Source: Microbispora hainanensis (GTDB lineage: Bacteria > Actinomycetota > Actinomycetes > Streptosporangiales > Streptosporangiaceae). From it: a stretch of DNA of 64,000 bases. Shown one piece after another: positions 10,367-22,299 of this stretch. The DNA lies in NCBI RefSeq assembly GCF_006874475.1, contig NZ_VIRM01000034.1:1-64000 (forward strand). The letters run 5' to 3'. The notes under the pieces were generated by a model that was given only the letters and a program-made list of their open reading frames with translations, was not told the origin of the DNA and searched no databases. The translations under genes and the position numbers were made by a program. The number at the start of each line of letters is the position of its first letter. Within the stretch, counting starts at the first letter, position 1.

Positions 10367-10590
10367 GTCCTTCCGCCCACCGTCTTCGCTGGGCCGGGTA
10401 CGGCGGGCACCTCGTCCGGGACGACCGCGGATCGCGGTCTTCTCACAACGGGACCATACCTGTTGTGCGTCACCAAACCGTGCGATGTATGGCACAGACC
10501 ATGGATATCGCCGGTTACTCGCGGGTAGCATTCGTTTAGAGTTACCGACCAGTACGTTACCCCCGGGTTCGGTTCGAGGAGCGCACACAG

Positions 10591-16186: not shown

Positions 16187-16480
16187 CTAGAGCACGTACT
16201 GCACGGCCGCACGGTCGGCGAGGATCGGCGCGATGCACTCGTCGATCACCGCCAGGTGGGCCGGGTGGTCGCGATAGACGATGTAGTCCTCGGCGGAGTC
16301 GAAGTCGGCGACCACGCCGAACGAGAAGTTGCCCTGGTTGACGCCCGCGTCGTGGCCGATCTGGTAGGAGCGCAACTCGGGGATGGCATCCGGCAGCGTG
16401 CTCAGCCGCCTGGCCACCTCGGCCCACTGCTCCTCGGTGGCGTCCTCGGTCCACTTCAGCAGCACGACGTGGCGGAACAT
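16187..16480 (-). CDS. Dabb (stress-responsive A/B barrel) family protein
   Basis: A 97-aa dimeric alpha/beta-barrel protein. The opening MFRHVVLLKW and the central FSFGVVADFDSAEDYIVY, with HPAHLAVI, are family hallmarks. Some members are polyketide cyclases or stress proteins, and most have no known activity. The gene stands alone, convergent with marR. Confidence 0.92.
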   Translation of the reverse strand: MFRHVVLLKWTEDATEEQWAEVARRLSTLPDAIPELRSYQIGHDAGVNQGNFSFGVVADFDSAEDYIVYRDHPAHLAVIDECIAPILADRAAVQYVL

Positions 16481-16635: not shown

Positions 16636-17367
16636 TCACTCGACGGGCGGGTGGGCCGGATGAGGAGTGCTCCCGCTCTGCCACTGCTCGATGACCTGCC
16701 GGAACGCCTCGCTCACGAGGGACAGGAGCTCGGCGGAGGACTCGAAGCGGGCACCCGCCGGGGTCGCGGCCCCGAGGACCTCGGCTCCGCGCTGCGACGC
16801 CGCCACCAGGGCGTCGTTCATCTGCAGGGACGCGAGCATGGACCGGAGCCAGATCTCGTCGTCGATGACGTAGCGTTCGCGCCGCGCGCCGGGGACCCGC
16901 TCCCGCTTGAGCATTCCCTGCTGTTCGAGGAAGGCGACGGCGTGCGAGATCGAGGCGGGGCTGACGTGGAGCCGCTGGACCAGGTCGGCGGCGGTGAGAG
17001 CGCCGGAATCCGTGACGTACAGGCAGGCCAGCACCCTGGCCTCCATCCGGGGCAATCCCTGCTGGACGAGGAGGGCGACGAAGGACTCGGTGAAGTCCTG
17101 CACCGCCCGGGGGTCACGCCCATGGCCGCCGTCGGGGATCGGCGGCGCCGGAGGCCGGGCCTGCTTGTGCCGGCGCGCACGCTGCCGGGTGGCATCCTCT
17201 GCCCGGTCGGCCCGGTAATCGCCGGGTCCGCCGTTGCGGGTGACCTCCCGCATGATCGTCGAGGCGGGCCGCCCCAGACGCCGGCCGATCTCCGCGTATC
17301 CGAGGCCCTCGGCCAGCCCTGCGGCGATCTGCCGGCGGTCTTCGTTCGTGAGTCTGCCTCCGGGCAT
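16636..17367 (-). CDS. Transcriptional regulator with IS30-type HTH plus MarR/GbsR-like domain
   Basis: A 243-aa putative DNA-binding protein with two helix-turn-helix modules. Residues about 5-45 (LTNEDRRQIAAGLAEGLG, then GRPASTIMREV) resemble the N-terminal HTH of IS30-type transposases. Residues about 95-175 (ARVLACLYVTDSGALTAADL, then VSPASISHAVAFLEQQGML) are a GbsR/MarR-type winged helix. No transposase catalytic domain follows. It is divergent from the serine hydrolase gene, and the 309-bp gap is packed with ATTGC/GCAAT elements that are likely its operators. An arginine-rich linker (about 55-75) joins the modules. Start chosen at the ATG at 17367 (MPGGRLT). Confidence 0.85.
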   Translation of the reverse strand: MPGGRLTNEDRRQIAAGLAEGLGYAEIGRRLGRPASTIMREVTRNGGPGDYRADRAEDATRQRARRHKQARPPAPPIPDGGHGRDPRAVQDFTESFVALLVQQGLPRMEARVLACLYVTDSGALTAADLVQRLHVSPASISHAVAFLEQQGMLKRERVPGARRERYVIDDEIWLRSMLASLQMNDALVAASQRGAEVLGAATPAGARFESSAELLSLVSEAFRQVIEQWQSGSTPHPAHPPVE

Positions 17368-17676
17368 CGGTGCTCGTCCCCTGTCTCCCGACACGCGTGG
17401 AGCTCGGCGCTCGCACGCTGCACAGTATGCATTCACTCGGACCCCATTGCAATGCACGCCCGACCGCCCATTGCGTTCAGTGTCAATCTCATTGCAACAA
17501 CCCTCCCTGTCTCCGTTGCTTACATGGCACTTGTGCTCGCTTTGCTTGTTGACCGTTTTATGAATGCAATGTAGTGTCGCAGTCGTTCAGAGATTCCCGA
17601 ACACATTGCGGGCGCCGGTGGCGCCGCGGCGGGAGTCCGATAAAGCAGATCGACCATGTGTGTGAGGAGATTCATG
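17368..17676. promoter_or_regulatory. ATTGCA-rich shared regulatory region with a promoter
   Basis: The divergent region contains the perfect palindrome CATTGCAATG (17445-17454) and further ATTGC or GCAAT elements near 17472, 17491, 17563 and 17602. A plausible promoter for the serine hydrolase is TTGACC (17549-17554), 17 bp, TAGTGT (17572-17577). A GCAATG element lies inside its spacer, which suits repression. The local A+T content is well above the neighbouring genes. Confidence 0.65.
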
Positions 17677-18903
17677 ATGGAAACCAGCGGCAGCGGCTTC
17701 TCCGCGACCGGGCTGCGCAGGATGCGCGAGGTGCTGACGCGTTATGTCGACTCGGGGCGGATTCCCGGGCTTGTCGCCCTGGTCAGCCGGGGCGGGCAGA
17801 CGCACGTGGAGGCGATCGGGACGATGCGTCATGACGGCGGCGCTCCGATGGGCCGGGACACGATCTTCCGGATGGCCTCGACGTCCAAGCCGGTCTCGGT
17901 CGCGGCGGCGATGGTCCTGCTGGACGAGTGCAGGCTGCGGCTGGACGACCGAGTCGACCCGTGGCTGCCGGAGCTGGCCGACCGTCAGGTGCTGAGACGA
18001 GTGGACGGCCCGCTGGACGACACGGTGCCGGCGCGGCGGCCGATCACCGTGCGCGACGTGCTGGCCTCCACGTTCGGGCTCGGCATGGATATGACGTCGC
18101 TGGGCACCCCGATCATGAACGCGGTCTTCGAGCAGGGGCTCACGCCCAACCTGCCGGTGCCGATGCCCGAGCAGGACGAGTGGATGCGCCGCCTCGGCGC
18201 GCTCCCGCTGATGTATCAGCCGGGGGAGCGCTGGCAGTACCACATCGGCAGCGACCTGCTCGGCGTGCTGGTGTCCCGGGTCACGGGGCAGCCGTTCGAG
18301 GAGTTCCTGCGCGAGCGCGTCTTCGAACCGCTGGGGATGACCGACACCGGTTTCCACGTGCCCGCCGGCAAGATCGACCGGCTGCCGGCCCTCTACGCCC
18401 CCGACCCCCAGACCGGCGAGTTCCTCGTGTGGGACGAGGCCAAGGGAGGACGGTGGAGCGAGCCTCCGGCGTTCCAGGGCGGCGGTGGCGGGCTGGTCTC
18501 CACCGTCGACGACTACCACGCCTACTTCCGGATGCTGCTCAATGGCGGGACCCACAAGGGCAGGCGCATCCTGTCCCGGCCGGCCGTCGAACTGATGACC
18601 ACCAACCGCCTCACGCCCGAGCAGAACGCCGCCCGCAACGCGATGGCCGTCGACAACGTGCACATCTCGCACGGCCAGGGACAGCACGGCGGCTGGGGCT
18701 TCGGGATGGCGGTGCGCACCTACCGCGGCGACTACGCCTCCGTCGGCCAGTTCGGCTGGGACGGCGGAAGCGGCACCGCGGCGTACGCCGACCCGTCCGA
18801 GCAGCTCGTCGGACTCCTGCTCACCCAGGTCGGCGCGTCCACCCCGGACTCGATGCAGCTCATCCACGACTTCTGGACCACGCTCTACCAGGCGATCGAC
18901 TGA
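17677..18903 (+). CDS. Serine hydrolase, class-C beta-lactamase/esterase family
   Basis: A 408-aa beta-lactamase-fold hydrolase. The catalytic Ser-x-x-Lys is Ser68-Thr-Ser-Lys71 (MASTSKP), and the Tyr motif is WQYHIGSDLLG. Residues 120-200 contain the ITVRDVLAST segment common to EstB-type esterases. No signal peptide is visible, so it is probably cytoplasmic. GAGGAG lies seven bases upstream of the ATG at 17677; the adjacent ATG at 17674 is an alternative. It is likely controlled by the divergent two-HTH regulator. Esterase or D-aminopeptidase activity is more likely than beta-lactam resistance. Confidence 0.9.
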   Translation: METSGSGFSATGLRRMREVLTRYVDSGRIPGLVALVSRGGQTHVEAIGTMRHDGGAPMGRDTIFRMASTSKPVSVAAAMVLLDECRLRLDDRVDPWLPELADRQVLRRVDGPLDDTVPARRPITVRDVLASTFGLGMDMTSLGTPIMNAVFEQGLTPNLPVPMPEQDEWMRRLGALPLMYQPGERWQYHIGSDLLGVLVSRVTGQPFEEFLRERVFEPLGMTDTGFHVPAGKIDRLPALYAPDPQTGEFLVWDEAKGGRWSEPPAFQGGGGGLVSTVDDYHAYFRMLLNGGTHKGRRILSRPAVELMTTNRLTPEQNAARNAMAVDNVHISHGQGQHGGWGFGMAVRTYRGDYASVGQFGWDGGSGTAAYADPSEQLVGLLLTQVGASTPDSMQLIHDFWTTLYQAID

Positions 18904-19000: not shown

Positions 19001-19408
19001 ATGTCCGTCACCCTCACCGACCAGGACAAGATCACCCTGCGGACCGCCGCGTACGGCGCCGTCTCGCTGCTGGCCGCCGCCGGCGTCACCGGCTCGCCCC
19101 ACAAGGTCGCCACCGAGGGCTCCATCGCCCTGGCCTCCGCTACCGGCCTCGTCGGGCACGTGCTCGCCGAGAAGTCGACGGGCATGGACTTGAGCGGCAG
19201 GTCTGTGGCCGAGCTCGCCGACCGCGTGCTGCCGGCCCTGGCGGCATCGGTGAACCTGCTCAGGCGGCAGGCACCGGCCGAGGCCGACAACTTCCGCAGC
19301 ACCGTCCTCGTCGCGGTCGAAGCGGCCGCCCGGGCGCAGAAGGGCGAGCCCGGCCCCATCATGGCCGACATGACCCGCAAGATCACCGAAGCGCTCGACG
19401 CCGCCTGA
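19001..19408 (+). CDS. Conserved protein of unknown function
   Basis: A 135-aa, probably all-helical, soluble protein (LRTAAYGAVSLLAAAGV, then ALASATGLVGHVL). I do not recognise a functional family, although the composition and lack of low-complexity sequence suggest a genuine conserved protein. The ATG at 19001 follows AAAGGA at a reasonable distance. It lies 97 bp after the serine hydrolase on the same strand and may be co-transcribed with it. Confidence 0.8.
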   Translation: MSVTLTDQDKITLRTAAYGAVSLLAAAGVTGSPHKVATEGSIALASATGLVGHVLAEKSTGMDLSGRSVAELADRVLPALAASVNLLRRQAPAEADNFRSTVLVAVEAAARAQKGEPGPIMADMTRKITEALDAA

Positions 19409-19520: not shown

Positions 19521-20564
19521 TCAGCCGGGGCCGCACAGCCAGTGCCACTCGATGGAGGCGCGCCTGCGCCGGCCGGCGAGCCACTCGCCGAAGGCGGTCT
19601 CCCCCGCCGCGGTCAGCGTCTCCGGGTCGTCCCGCCCCACCCGGCGCTCCAGCACGATCCCGGTCAGATAGCCGTCGCCGTACGCCACCGGGCCGACCGG
19701 CGTGCCGGTCGGGACGTGCCGCAGGGGCGCGGGCAGGTCCCTGGCCCACCGCTCGCCGACGGTCACCACGGCCTCCCGGTAGTTCGACAGGCCGCTGGGC
19801 AGACCGCCCGTGCCGCGCAGCAGATCCCCGTTCATCGGCTGCGAGCCGGTCACCCACAGCGCGCGCACCCGGTCGAAGTCACCGCGGTGGGCGGCGAGGT
19901 GGCCCGGCGCGAGCTCGGCCTCCTTGCGCCGCCGGAAGCGCCGCCGCCGTGCGATCCCGGCGATGAACGCCTCGAACTGCTCGCCGGACAGCGACATCTC
20001 CGCCAGCCAGGCCAGCGTGGAGGCGCGGTCACGCAGGCCGTGGCCCGCACGGAACTCCTCGGTGGCGGCCCGGATGTCGGCGTCGCCGAGGGGCTCGCCG
20101 TCCTCCAGCGTCTCGTTCATCAGCAGGCACTGCTCGACGATCTCGTCATGGACGTCGCGATCGCCGTACGGCCGGCCGGGCAGCAGCATGAGCGCCTCGG
20201 CGACGGGCAGGCGCACGCGGTCGACCGTGACCAGATATCCGGCAACACAACATCCGGCGGCGCAGTGGGCCGAGTGCCCGGCCGGCCAGGGCACGCCGCC
20301 TTCCAGCGAGGTGAAAAGAGCCGAGGTGGAGAGGGCGACGGTGCCGCCCTCCGGATGGTCGACGAGCAGGTCGTAGCCGACCAGCGGGCTGCCCGGACGC
20401 AGGCCGACGACAAGCCGGGCCCGCACCTCCGGGTGGATGGCCGCCCACGCCGTGACCAGGGTCCTGGCCTCGGGAACGGCCGCACGGCGGCGGCCCAGGC
20501 CGCGCAGCAGTGCGACGGCTTCGGCGAGGACCGCGGCGAACGCCGTCGCCGGCACGGCGGTCAT
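19521..20564 (-). CDS. PpiC-related putative peptide-maturation protein
   Basis: A 347-aa protein that I match, from memory, to an actinobacterial family described as putative peptide-maturation proteins related to PpiC/SurA peptidyl-prolyl isomerases. The N-terminal domain (about 25-130) has HPEVRARLVVG and YDLLVDHPEGGTVAL; the middle has a SurA-like helical segment; the C-terminus has FGEWLAGRRRRASIEWHWL. Whether the isomerase residues are intact cannot be judged by eye. Its ATG overlaps the TGA of the 75-codon small gene (ATGA), so the two are translationally coupled. No radical-SAM, lanthipeptide or ATP-grasp enzyme lies nearby. The family name is a recollection, not a search result. Confidence 0.75.
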   Translation of the reverse strand: MTAVPATAFAAVLAEAVALLRGLGRRRAAVPEARTLVTAWAAIHPEVRARLVVGLRPGSPLVGYDLLVDHPEGGTVALSTSALFTSLEGGVPWPAGHSAHCAAGCCVAGYLVTVDRVRLPVAEALMLLPGRPYGDRDVHDEIVEQCLLMNETLEDGEPLGDADIRAATEEFRAGHGLRDRASTLAWLAEMSLSGEQFEAFIAGIARRRRFRRRKEAELAPGHLAAHRGDFDRVRALWVTGSQPMNGDLLRGTGGLPSGLSNYREAVVTVGERWARDLPAPLRHVPTGTPVGPVAYGDGYLTGIVLERRVGRDDPETLTAAGETAFGEWLAGRRRRASIEWHWLCGPG

Positions 20565-20788
20565 GCCGCCGGCCACGCGGCGATCGCGTCACCGGCCGGC
20601 GGCCCGGCGCTCTCCTCCACCGGCGCCCGCGCGCCGTCCGGATCCGCGACGACGCGCTCGCCCTCCGCGACCGCGGTCGCCCGTGACCCGGCGGCGGACT
20701 CACCACCGTCCCACCAGGCCACGGGGACGATCTCCGGGAGGACACGGCGCACGGCGCTGTCCTGCCGGTCACTCAGTATGAGGATCAC
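20561..20788 (-). CDS. Small coupled protein or precursor-like peptide (75 codons)
   Basis: A 75-aa reading frame starting at GTG 20788 whose stop overlaps the next start as ATGA, strong evidence that it is translated. The N-terminal MILILSDRQDS faintly resembles the first strand of ATP-grasp enzymes. The C-terminal half is Ala/Gly/Glu/Pro-rich with no Cys and ends DAIAAWPAA. An internal GTG start (about 52 codons, beginning AWWDGG) has a better-placed GGAG. It could be a precursor peptide for its coupled partner, a small partner protein, or the stub of a deleted gene. No homology is claimed. Confidence 0.6.
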   Translation of the reverse strand: MILILSDRQDSAVRRVLPEIVPVAWWDGGESAAGSRATAVAEGERVVADPDGARAPVEESAGPPAGDAIAAWPAA

Positions 20789-20859
20789 ACGCGAACGGTA
20801 GGAATCCGAGCTTGCGCCTCACTGGTTCGGATCTTGCATCCGACTTGAGTGGTCTCCGC

Positions 20860-22299
20860 TCAGCTCCACGCGAGCATGCGGAGGGGGTCCTCCAGCATGG
20901 CGCCGACGTCGCGCAGGACGTACGAACCGAGCTCGCCGTCGACAACGCGGTGGTCGAACGACAGCGCCAGCGTGGTGACCTTGCGGACCGCGAGCTGCCC
21001 GTCGACCACCCAGGGCATGTCCCTGATCTGACCGATGGCGAGGATCGCCACCTCTCCCGGGTTGAGGATCGGCGTGCCGGCGTCGACGCCGAAGACGCCG
21101 ACATTCGTGATCGTGATCGTGCCGCCGCTCAGCTCGGCCGGCTGGCACTTGCCGGCCCGCGCCCGCTCGGTGAGCTCGCCCAGCGCCCAGGCGAGTTCGG
21201 GCAGCGACATCGCGTCGGCGTCCTTGACGTTCGGCACGATCAGCCCGCGATCGGTGGCGGCGGCGATGCCGAGGTTCACGTAGTGCTTGACCACGATCTC
21301 CTCGCCCGTCCACGTGGCGTTGACCATCGGGTGCCGCTTCACCGCGGTGATCAGGGCCTTCGCCACGAGGAGCAGCGGCGAGACCTTGACCTCGGCGAAC
21401 TCGGGCAGCGTACGCAGCCGCCGGACCGCCTCCATCGTCTCGGTCACGTCGACCTGCAGCCACTCGGTCACATGCGGGGCCGAGAACGCGCTGGCCACCA
21501 TCGCCTGCGCGGTCGCCTTCCTGACCCCCCGGACCGGGATGCGCTCCTCCCGCGCCCCAGCCTCCCGCCGTACGGCGGACGCGACGGGGGCGGGGGCCGC
21601 CGCGGCGGCCTCCACGTCCGCCCGGGTGATCGACCCCTGGGGGCCGGTGCCCGTGAGGGTCGTCAGGTCGACGCCCAGGTCCTTGGCGAGCTTGCGGACC
21701 GGCGGCTTGGCCAGGACGCGCGCCCGCGCGGGCGTCGCGGAGCCGTTGCCCTGCGGTGCACCAACGCCCCCTGCCACCGGAATCGCCGGAGCGGCAGGAA
21801 CGGCCGGAGCGGCGACGACGGGGGCGACCGGCGGAGCGGACACGGCCGCCCGCGGAACGGATACGGCGGACGGCGGCACGGACACGGCGGACGGAGCGGG
21901 CGCGGCCGGCTTCCGGGGGCGGCGGCGGGTGGCGCTCGTCTTGACGCCATACCCGACCAGCACCGGCTGGCGCTCCTCCTTCGCCGGTGCGGCGTTCCGC
22001 ACGTCCGGCACCATGTCGTCCGCCAGTGCCTGACGGCCCGCGGCGGCGCCGTCACCACCCACGCCGTCCTCGACCGAGATGATCGGGCTGCCGACGTCCA
22101 CGGTCTGGCCCTCGCCGGCCAGCAGGGCGGAAACGGTGCCCTCGTACGGACACGGCAGCTCGACGACGGCCTTCGCCGTCTCGATCTCGACGATCGTCTG
22201 GTTGATCTTCACCGAGTCGCCCGGGGCGACGTGCCACTTGACGATTTCGGCCTCGGTCAGCCCCTCGCCCACGTCGGGGAGCCTGAACTCACGGAGCAT
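20860..22299 (-). CDS. bkdC: 2-oxoacid dehydrogenase E2, dihydrolipoyl acyltransferase
   Basis: The core of the branched-chain 2-oxoacid (or related) dehydrogenase complex (479 aa), transferring acyl groups from lipoate to CoA. It has an N-terminal lipoyl domain with Lys43 in EIETAKAVVEL, a long Pro/Ala/Val linker (about 95-190), a peripheral-subunit-binding domain (KPPVRKLAKDLGVDL) and a C-terminal catalytic domain with DHRVVDGE near the end. The ATG at 22299 has AGGGA upstream. It lies 17 bp after E1beta in the same operon. No E3 is adjacent, so a shared E3 elsewhere is expected. The branched-chain assignment rests on E1 similarity and is inferred. Confidence 0.93.
   Translation of the reverse strand: MLREFRLPDVGEGLTEAEIVKWHVAPGDSVKINQTIVEIETAKAVVELPCPYEGTVSALLAGEGQTVDVGSPIISVEDGVGGDGAAAGRQALADDMVPDVRNAAPAKEERQPVLVGYGVKTSATRRRPRKPAAPAPSAVSVPPSAVSVPRAAVSAPPVAPVVAAPAVPAAPAIPVAGGVGAPQGNGSATPARARVLAKPPVRKLAKDLGVDLTTLTGTGPQGSITRADVEAAAAAPAPVASAVRREAGAREERIPVRGVRKATAQAMVASAFSAPHVTEWLQVDVTETMEAVRRLRTLPEFAEVKVSPLLLVAKALITAVKRHPMVNATWTGEEIVVKHYVNLGIAAATDRGLIVPNVKDADAMSLPELAWALGELTERARAGKCQPAELSGGTITITNVGVFGVDAGTPILNPGEVAILAIGQIRDMPWVVDGQLAVRKVTTLALSFDHRVVDGELGSYVLRDVGAMLEDPLRMLAWS

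Follow-up and report, generated by a model that had tools for sequence, protein, structure and literature searches.

The stretch of DNA analysed here, 64,000 nucleotides of contig NZ_VIRM01000034.1 of Microbispora hainanensis (the window), carries on its minus strand a tightly packed pair of genes, a 75-codon frame followed by a frame for a 347-aa protein (Table 1). As the earlier note had seen directly in the sequence, the TGA of the small frame lies within the ATG of the next gene (GGCATGACC, ATGA), and the small frame indeed contains no Cys. Upstream of the pair lies an E1/E2 2-oxoacid dehydrogenase operon. The neighbours checked from 16 to 24.5 kb encode a Dabb protein, an HTH/MarR protein, a beta-lactamase-fold protein, E2, E1-beta and E1-alpha, in agreement with the initial observation that no RiPP enzyme adjoins the pair; among them, no C39-peptidase exporter and no intact graspetide synthetase were found beside the large gene, only the 75-codon remnant described below. 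The HTH/MarR gene is a single frame joining HTH_38 and MarR-type domains, which is an unusual combination. In M. siamensis, Planotetraspora and others the Dabb gene stands close behind the homologue of the large gene, and in the window the beta-lactamase-fold gene and the 135-aa frame look inserted. Elsewhere in the window there is a Guanidine-III riboswitch (Rfam RF01763, 39.8 bits, gathering threshold 36), which is also found in loci L061 and L051.

Table 1. Features of the window and of related loci. Positions are those of the window unless a locus is named.
Feature	Position	Strand	Basis and remarks
Small frame, 75 codons, GTG start	20561..20788	minus	tblastn and alignments; very probably a relic of a MirB-like ATP-grasp graspetide synthetase
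Approximate scar of in-frame internal deletion	20645..20674	minus	DNA alignment and indel list; exact breakpoint ambiguous
ATGA stop/start overlap	20561..20564	minus	Read directly; very probably inherited from an intact synthetase-partner pair
TIGR04500 (PpiC_rel_mature), 347 aa from ATG	19521..20564	minus	NCBIfam, 248.5 bits; very probably a MirC-like partner
-10-like TACCGT	20795..20800	minus	Sequence and conservation; six bases before the GTG of the small frame
Putative SARP-like operator: CAAG, CAAG, (CCAG), CAAG in 11-base steps	20811..20847	minus	One match in the window, 0.01 expected
aceF-like E2 acyltransferase	20860..22227	minus	Pfam 2-oxoacid_dh; upstream-side syntenic anchor in 20/29 named loci
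135-aa frame, no assigned family	19001-19408	plus	Between TIGR04500 and Dabb
Beta-lactamase-fold gene	17656-18903	plus	Between TIGR04500 and Dabb
HTH_38/MarR-type frame	16636-17457	minus
Dabb protein	16187..16480	minus	Pfam Dabb; downstream-side syntenic anchor in most loci
Guanidine-III riboswitch	10372-10443	minus	Rfam
Second TIGR04500 graspetide cluster, same genome	L035 (contig C24): 6095-7090, 7191-8177, 8541-8705, 8716-8868, 9003-11624	minus	Apparently complete
Second TIGR04500, Microbispora sp. H13382	L051:6848-7897		Directly after the exporter of the complete cluster
Precursor-like frame and TIGR04500, Streptosporangium amethystogenes	L083:5465-6810		TIGR04500 with internal in-frame gap
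Leader hairpin sites	L061:5807-5962, L062, L064, L076:5838-5977, L077, L079, L082		Upstream of orphan TIGR04500

The earlier note had likened the large product to a family of putative peptide-maturation proteins, and a search of NCBIfam bore this out: the protein aligns to TIGR04500 over model positions 2-339 of 340 with 248.5 bits (curated cut-off 180). Work on Micromonospora rosaria has shown that the graspetide synthetase MirB (TIGR04187) cannot do without MirC, a TIGR04500 protein: MirA stays unmodified unless both are there, and MirB and MirC copurify (PMC13097080). The N domain of MirC is RRE-like and its C domain SurA-like; a match to 3RGC was reported for the protein, and no similarity to the PPIase domain was reported (PMC13097080). 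The predicted structure of the window protein (pLDDT 80.9) likewise has 3RGC (Cj1289) as its top Foldseek match (E 2.4e-7), and its best fold matches, 3RGC and 2PV3, are those of MirC. By fold the C domain is SurA-like, and the N domain corresponds to the RRE-like one of MirC. The protein differs from the SurA, Cj1289 and PrsA chaperones in that its whole-chain TM-scores against them are low, owing to a different domain placement. The idea that the pair represents an undescribed system has been overtaken by the publication of MirB/MirC-dependent graspetide synthesis in 2026 (PMC13097080).

Searches of Pfam and NCBIfam, the precursor families of the latter included, gave no match to the small product, and no GRASP_targ precursor was found at the window locus. 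Its homology is to an ATP-grasp peptide maturase. The interval from the aceF-like gene to TIGR04500 in M. catharanthi (G003, L036/L056) encodes an ATP-grasp protein of 308 aa that bears an MvdD pre-ATP-grasp domain. The protein is TIGR04187-like, at 166.6 bits against a cut-off of 350, and its gene shares with the small frame of the window the GTG start, an almost identical upstream region and the ATGA overlap. Both ends of the window frame align to this protein by tblastn (N end E 2e-14, C end E 6e-7), the frame joining ~46 codons from its start to ~29 from its end, with the middle missing. The catalytic residues of graspetide synthetases (ATP-binding Lys, D(F/W)R motif, ExN) are all gone from the window frame. 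The deletion relative to M. catharanthi removes 681 bases, is in frame, and is common to M. rosea and a third species, G002; the window frame shows further losses of 12 and 6 bases, of which the 6-base loss is apparently common to genome G009. An assembly artefact was rejected because the same deletion occurs in the separately assembled genomes of M. rosea and G002, with a related relic in G009. Since both ends match a syntenic intact synthetase with the same ATGA overlap, the small frame is very probably the relic of a MirB-like synthetase and the large frame its MirC-like partner, with the coupling inherited from the enzyme-partner pair.

The recurrence of homologous pairs with a conserved overlap had been proposed as a check, and the frame upstream of the large gene does end in the same ATGA or GTGA in relatives. 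Shortened versions of the synthetase, all terminating in this (A/G)TGA overlap, are present in five Microbispora relatives; other, shorter remnants that end in (A/G)TGA at the TIGR04500 start are those of M. siamensis, G005 and Microbispora sp. H11081. The overlap reads GGCATGACC also in M. catharanthi, M. rosea, G002 and M. siamensis, GTGA in G005 and Microbispora sp. H13382, and CGATGAG in H11081. In M. corallina, M. amethystogenes and M. triticiradicis the synthetase is gone and no relic is left, and the TIGR04500 start is placed beside the promoter. Decay has gone further in other genomes: G009 has kept the relic but lost TIGR04500, and its CAAG repeats and -10 element have decayed, while G006 has lost the whole locus. 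In G002, two in-frame deletions, one taking out the N domain and the other the greater part of the SurA-like domain, have cut TIGR04500 to 108 codons, both ends of which are still in frame.

At the other end of the series stand complete clusters. In Microbispora sp. H13382 a TIGR04497 precursor (49.9 bits, cut-off 32), a synthetase, TIGR04500, a C39 exporter and a second TIGR04500 lie between aceF and Dabb; further complete clusters are found in Sphaerisporangium, Sphaerimonospora, Planobispora, Planomonospora and Streptosporangium saharense. True precursors are encoded in these clusters by a separate, recognisable TIGR04497 gene, which is absent at the window locus. The second TIGR04500 of H13382 belongs to the aceF-locus clade and directly follows the exporter gene, which suggests that the aceF-type TIGR04500 arose beside or within a complete cluster. 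The window genome itself has a second, apparently complete TIGR04500 graspetide cluster on contig C24, with two precursor-like frames that differ in their tails, a DWR-motif synthetase, a partner and a C39-exporter-like frame; its TIGR04500 is about 30% identical to that of the window, and most Microbispora genomes have one or more such clusters. In Streptosporangium amethystogenes a precursor-like frame is accompanied by a TIGR04500 with an internal in-frame gap, and no synthetase match was found in the 10.6 kb examined, possibly another separate synthetase loss, in a cluster-type lineage.

The TIGR04500 proteins encoded at aceF loci form a single clade (support 100/100), within which a synthetase is kept in M. 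catharanthi and Planotetraspora only, so at least five separate synthetase losses would have occurred if the ancestor had a synthetase. The two species could in principle have reacquired rather than retained it, but the relics in several other genomes argue against this. Both remaining aceF-type synthetases lack the DWR loop, which is invariant among the cluster synthetases compared, and carry N282D and D267H; that of M. catharanthi has K125R and K165N in addition. The DFR motif and ATP-binding residues are critical for graspetide synthetases (PMC13097080), and we infer that DWR is the equivalent of the DFR motif here. A precursor query at the aceF-type loci of M. catharanthi and Planotetraspora gave no match within about 6 kb of the synthetase. 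As precursor and exporter are missing from the neighbourhood and the remaining full-length synthetases are without the DWR loop, the aceF-locus cassette probably gave up peptide making ahead of the synthetase losses.

In Microtetraspora, Herbidospora and Acrocarpospora the orphaned partner has no relic in front of it and is preceded by a leader with its own purine-rich site. Absences of precursors and synthetases outside the window were determined by similarity searches of draft genomes, with the TIGR04187 family for the synthetase. The search of the Acrocarpospora corrugata draft at E 1e-10 gave no match, and that of the Herbidospora cretacea draft gave just a partial match to another ATP-grasp protein, so the orphan, whose C domain is kept in both, hardly serves a TIGR04187 synthetase there. 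A hairpin with the loop CCCCYTYGGA and the stem GCGCGGCGAGGC/GGCCTCGCCGCGCG is conserved in the leaders of the three genera, downstream of the SARP-like promoter and upstream of the orphan gene. A first pattern with fixed spacing gave no matches, and a pattern with a variable gap matched once and only once in each of seven genomes with the orphan; the hairpin shows a few compensatory changes and has no match in Rfam.

Selection was assessed by codon maximum likelihood under F3X4 and F1X4 and by counting changes by codon position on branches, with aceF as the control; pairwise NG86 dN/dS was dropped, as G+C-rich third positions distort its values. For the relic, omega was 0.61 under F3X4 and 0.93 under F1X4 (2dlnL against omega = 1, 2.2), and changes were flat over codon positions. 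The relic thus appears free of protein-level constraint, omega being inseparable from 1, although weak constraint is compatible with a comparison of only 74 codons. The earlier note had held that the pairing would be chance if homologues of the large gene had no upstream frame or if the small frame showed no coding conservation. The former is not the case and the latter is, and the pairing is still not chance, since the small frame consists of the synthetase ends. TIGR04500, for its part, has an omega of 0.11 over four Microbispora and, for the orphans of Microtetraspora, Herbidospora and Acrocarpospora, 0.063 (2dlnL 651; aceF of the same genera, 0.039), clearly indicating strong purifying selection in the latter three genera. 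On the window branch, changes in TIGR04500 at codon positions 1, 2 and 3 number 15, 21 and 19 (39 nonsynonymous, 16 synonymous), against 2, 4 and 11 on the M. catharanthi branch and 6, 8 and 28 on that of M. siamensis (Fisher p = 9e-5); the window-branch changes in aceF number 2, 0 and 11. The window copy is therefore likely to be under relaxed selection, a reading that rests on 55 changes. Indels present a different pattern. Across six genomes, the relic and TIGR04500 together show 16 distinct indels, tallied by eye in pairwise alignments and perhaps including some that genomes share. Every one is a multiple of three, for which the chance is about (1/3)^16, or about 2e-8, if indels are free. 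Because all are in frame, this suggests that the reading path through the relic is still kept.

A possible explanation of why the frame is kept while its sequence is not is offered by the promoter region. CAAG repeats at steps of 11 or 22 bases precede TACCGT at the corresponding position in Microbispora, Planotetraspora, Microtetraspora, Herbidospora and Acrocarpospora. SARP operators are made up of 11-base units, as in the GGCAAG-type heptamers of PimR (PMC5930380), and by layout the repeats form a putative SARP-like operator. The start of the small frame had been called debatable; this is now explained by the position of the GTG, which follows the -10-like TACCGT by six bases and is used in relatives too, and which looks like a leaderless start. 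Ribosomes would load at this SARP-driven GTG, cross the relic and pass to TIGR04500 at the ATGA, so that translation of the relic would feed ribosomes to the partner. That the relic acts in this way, as a leaderless cistron coupled into TIGR04500, seems to us almost an even call. In the scheme as a whole, the ATGA coupling would come down from an intact synthetase-partner pair whose products were needed together; the cassette would have given up peptide making, after which the synthetase was deleted several times. In the window lineage the catalytic middle would have gone by in-frame deletion and the partner would now be losing protein constraint, its sister G009 being already without a partner, whereas in other genera the strongly constrained orphan would probably have a task apart from graspetides, as a chaperone or adaptor.

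Several other readings of the locus were considered. The small frame was originally suspected to encode either the peptide on which a minimal, two-gene maturation system acts or else a dedicated partner. Its place directly upstream of a peptide-maturation family protein and a size within the range of RiPP precursors made the first of these attractive, but it was rejected and is now extremely improbable: the two halves align to both ends of a synthetase encoded at this site in a relative, the lack of a TIGR04497-type leader and of a GG motif sets the frame apart from the H13382 precursor and the precursor-like frames of C24, no coding constraint is seen, no adjoining synthetase could act on the product, and the orphan loci of three genera lack the small frame entirely. 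The second gives way to the same alignments, the frame being the remnant of a ~308-aa ATP-grasp partner enzyme. Domestication of the relic, as a functional small protein or as a sequence-specific leader peptide controlling TIGR04500, would account for the survival of the frame through many indels and for the first ~30 residues being still recognisable in several genomes. It is nonetheless quite improbable, given an omega inseparable from 1, flat changes over codon positions, indels that vary between species, and the persistence of TIGR04500 in species that have no relic.

Slightly less improbable, though still unlikely, is that the whole locus is neutral and dying everywhere, with in-frame indels a matter of luck and the orphan functionless in all genera. 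The TIGR04500 branches of the window and M. rosea do look neutral, G002 has accumulated more in-frame deletions, and G006 and G009 have lost the locus and the partner, respectively. Against this, the orphans of the three other genera are strongly constrained, the promoter is conserved, a single-copy structured leader is conserved at the orphans, and 16 of 16 in-frame indels are hardly luck. The orphaned partner might also act in trans, assisting a different graspetide synthetase encoded in its genome; this was judged about equally unlikely. The C24 cluster of the window genome and similar clusters in most Microbispora genomes would supply such an enzyme, but C24 has its own, only distantly similar TIGR04500, the window copy is relaxed, and the orphan persists in A. 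corrugata and H. cretacea, for which the search detected no TIGR04187 synthetase. A role of the orphaned partners outside graspetide synthesis is thus somewhat favoured by these sequence comparisons, the simplest guess being a chaperone or adaptor working on other clients. More tentatively than either this role or the coupling path, we propose that the aceF-locus clade was freed from peptide synthesis for a new cellular job while its synthetase first lost the catalytic motif and then vanished repeatedly; the partner would have stayed strongly selected, retaining its SARP-like promoter and, in three genera, the structured RNA leader, the window representing a late stage in which the synthetase survives as a translation path. 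A literature search on orphan graspetide partners, covering open-licence papers, returned nothing relevant.

Compared with the rosaritide system of Micromonospora rosaria (PMC13097080), the locus shares the combination of a TIGR04187-type synthetase and a TIGR04500 partner, to which the complete clusters of relatives add a precursor and a C39 exporter, whereas the window has a 75-codon synthetase remnant, no precursor or exporter, and a partner that is likely under relaxed selection. Within TIGR04500, annotated in NCBIfam as 'putative peptide maturation system protein', the window protein scores above the cut-off over its full length and has the SurA-like C domain by fold, but it belongs to the separate aceF-locus clade, which has usually lost its synthetase and, in several species, the N domain as well. 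A shortened, inactive ATP-grasp protein in a graspetide locus is already known from 'branch 8' (PMC8939145); two N-terminal domains are kept there, and the extreme ends alone here.

The window pair is left over from the decay of a known type of system and is not a minimal RiPP pathway, which settles the puzzle of the small gene; annotation would otherwise keep reporting a candidate RiPP system. It also illustrates that a stop-start overlap together with an in-frame deletion can yield a false 'coupled small gene'. The related genomes provide a natural series of complete cluster, pair without precursor, relic with partner, orphan partner and empty site, and the series concerns a partner protein whose role in graspetide synthesis, in the form of MirB/MirC, was shown only in 2026. 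Elsewhere in the clade the evidence is for an orphaned partner that has probably been repurposed, and with orphans in genomes where no TIGR04187 synthetase was detected, the function of this chaperone-like partner apart from graspetides becomes testable. The main interest lies in a helper that has repeatedly been kept in related bacteria after the loss of its enzyme.
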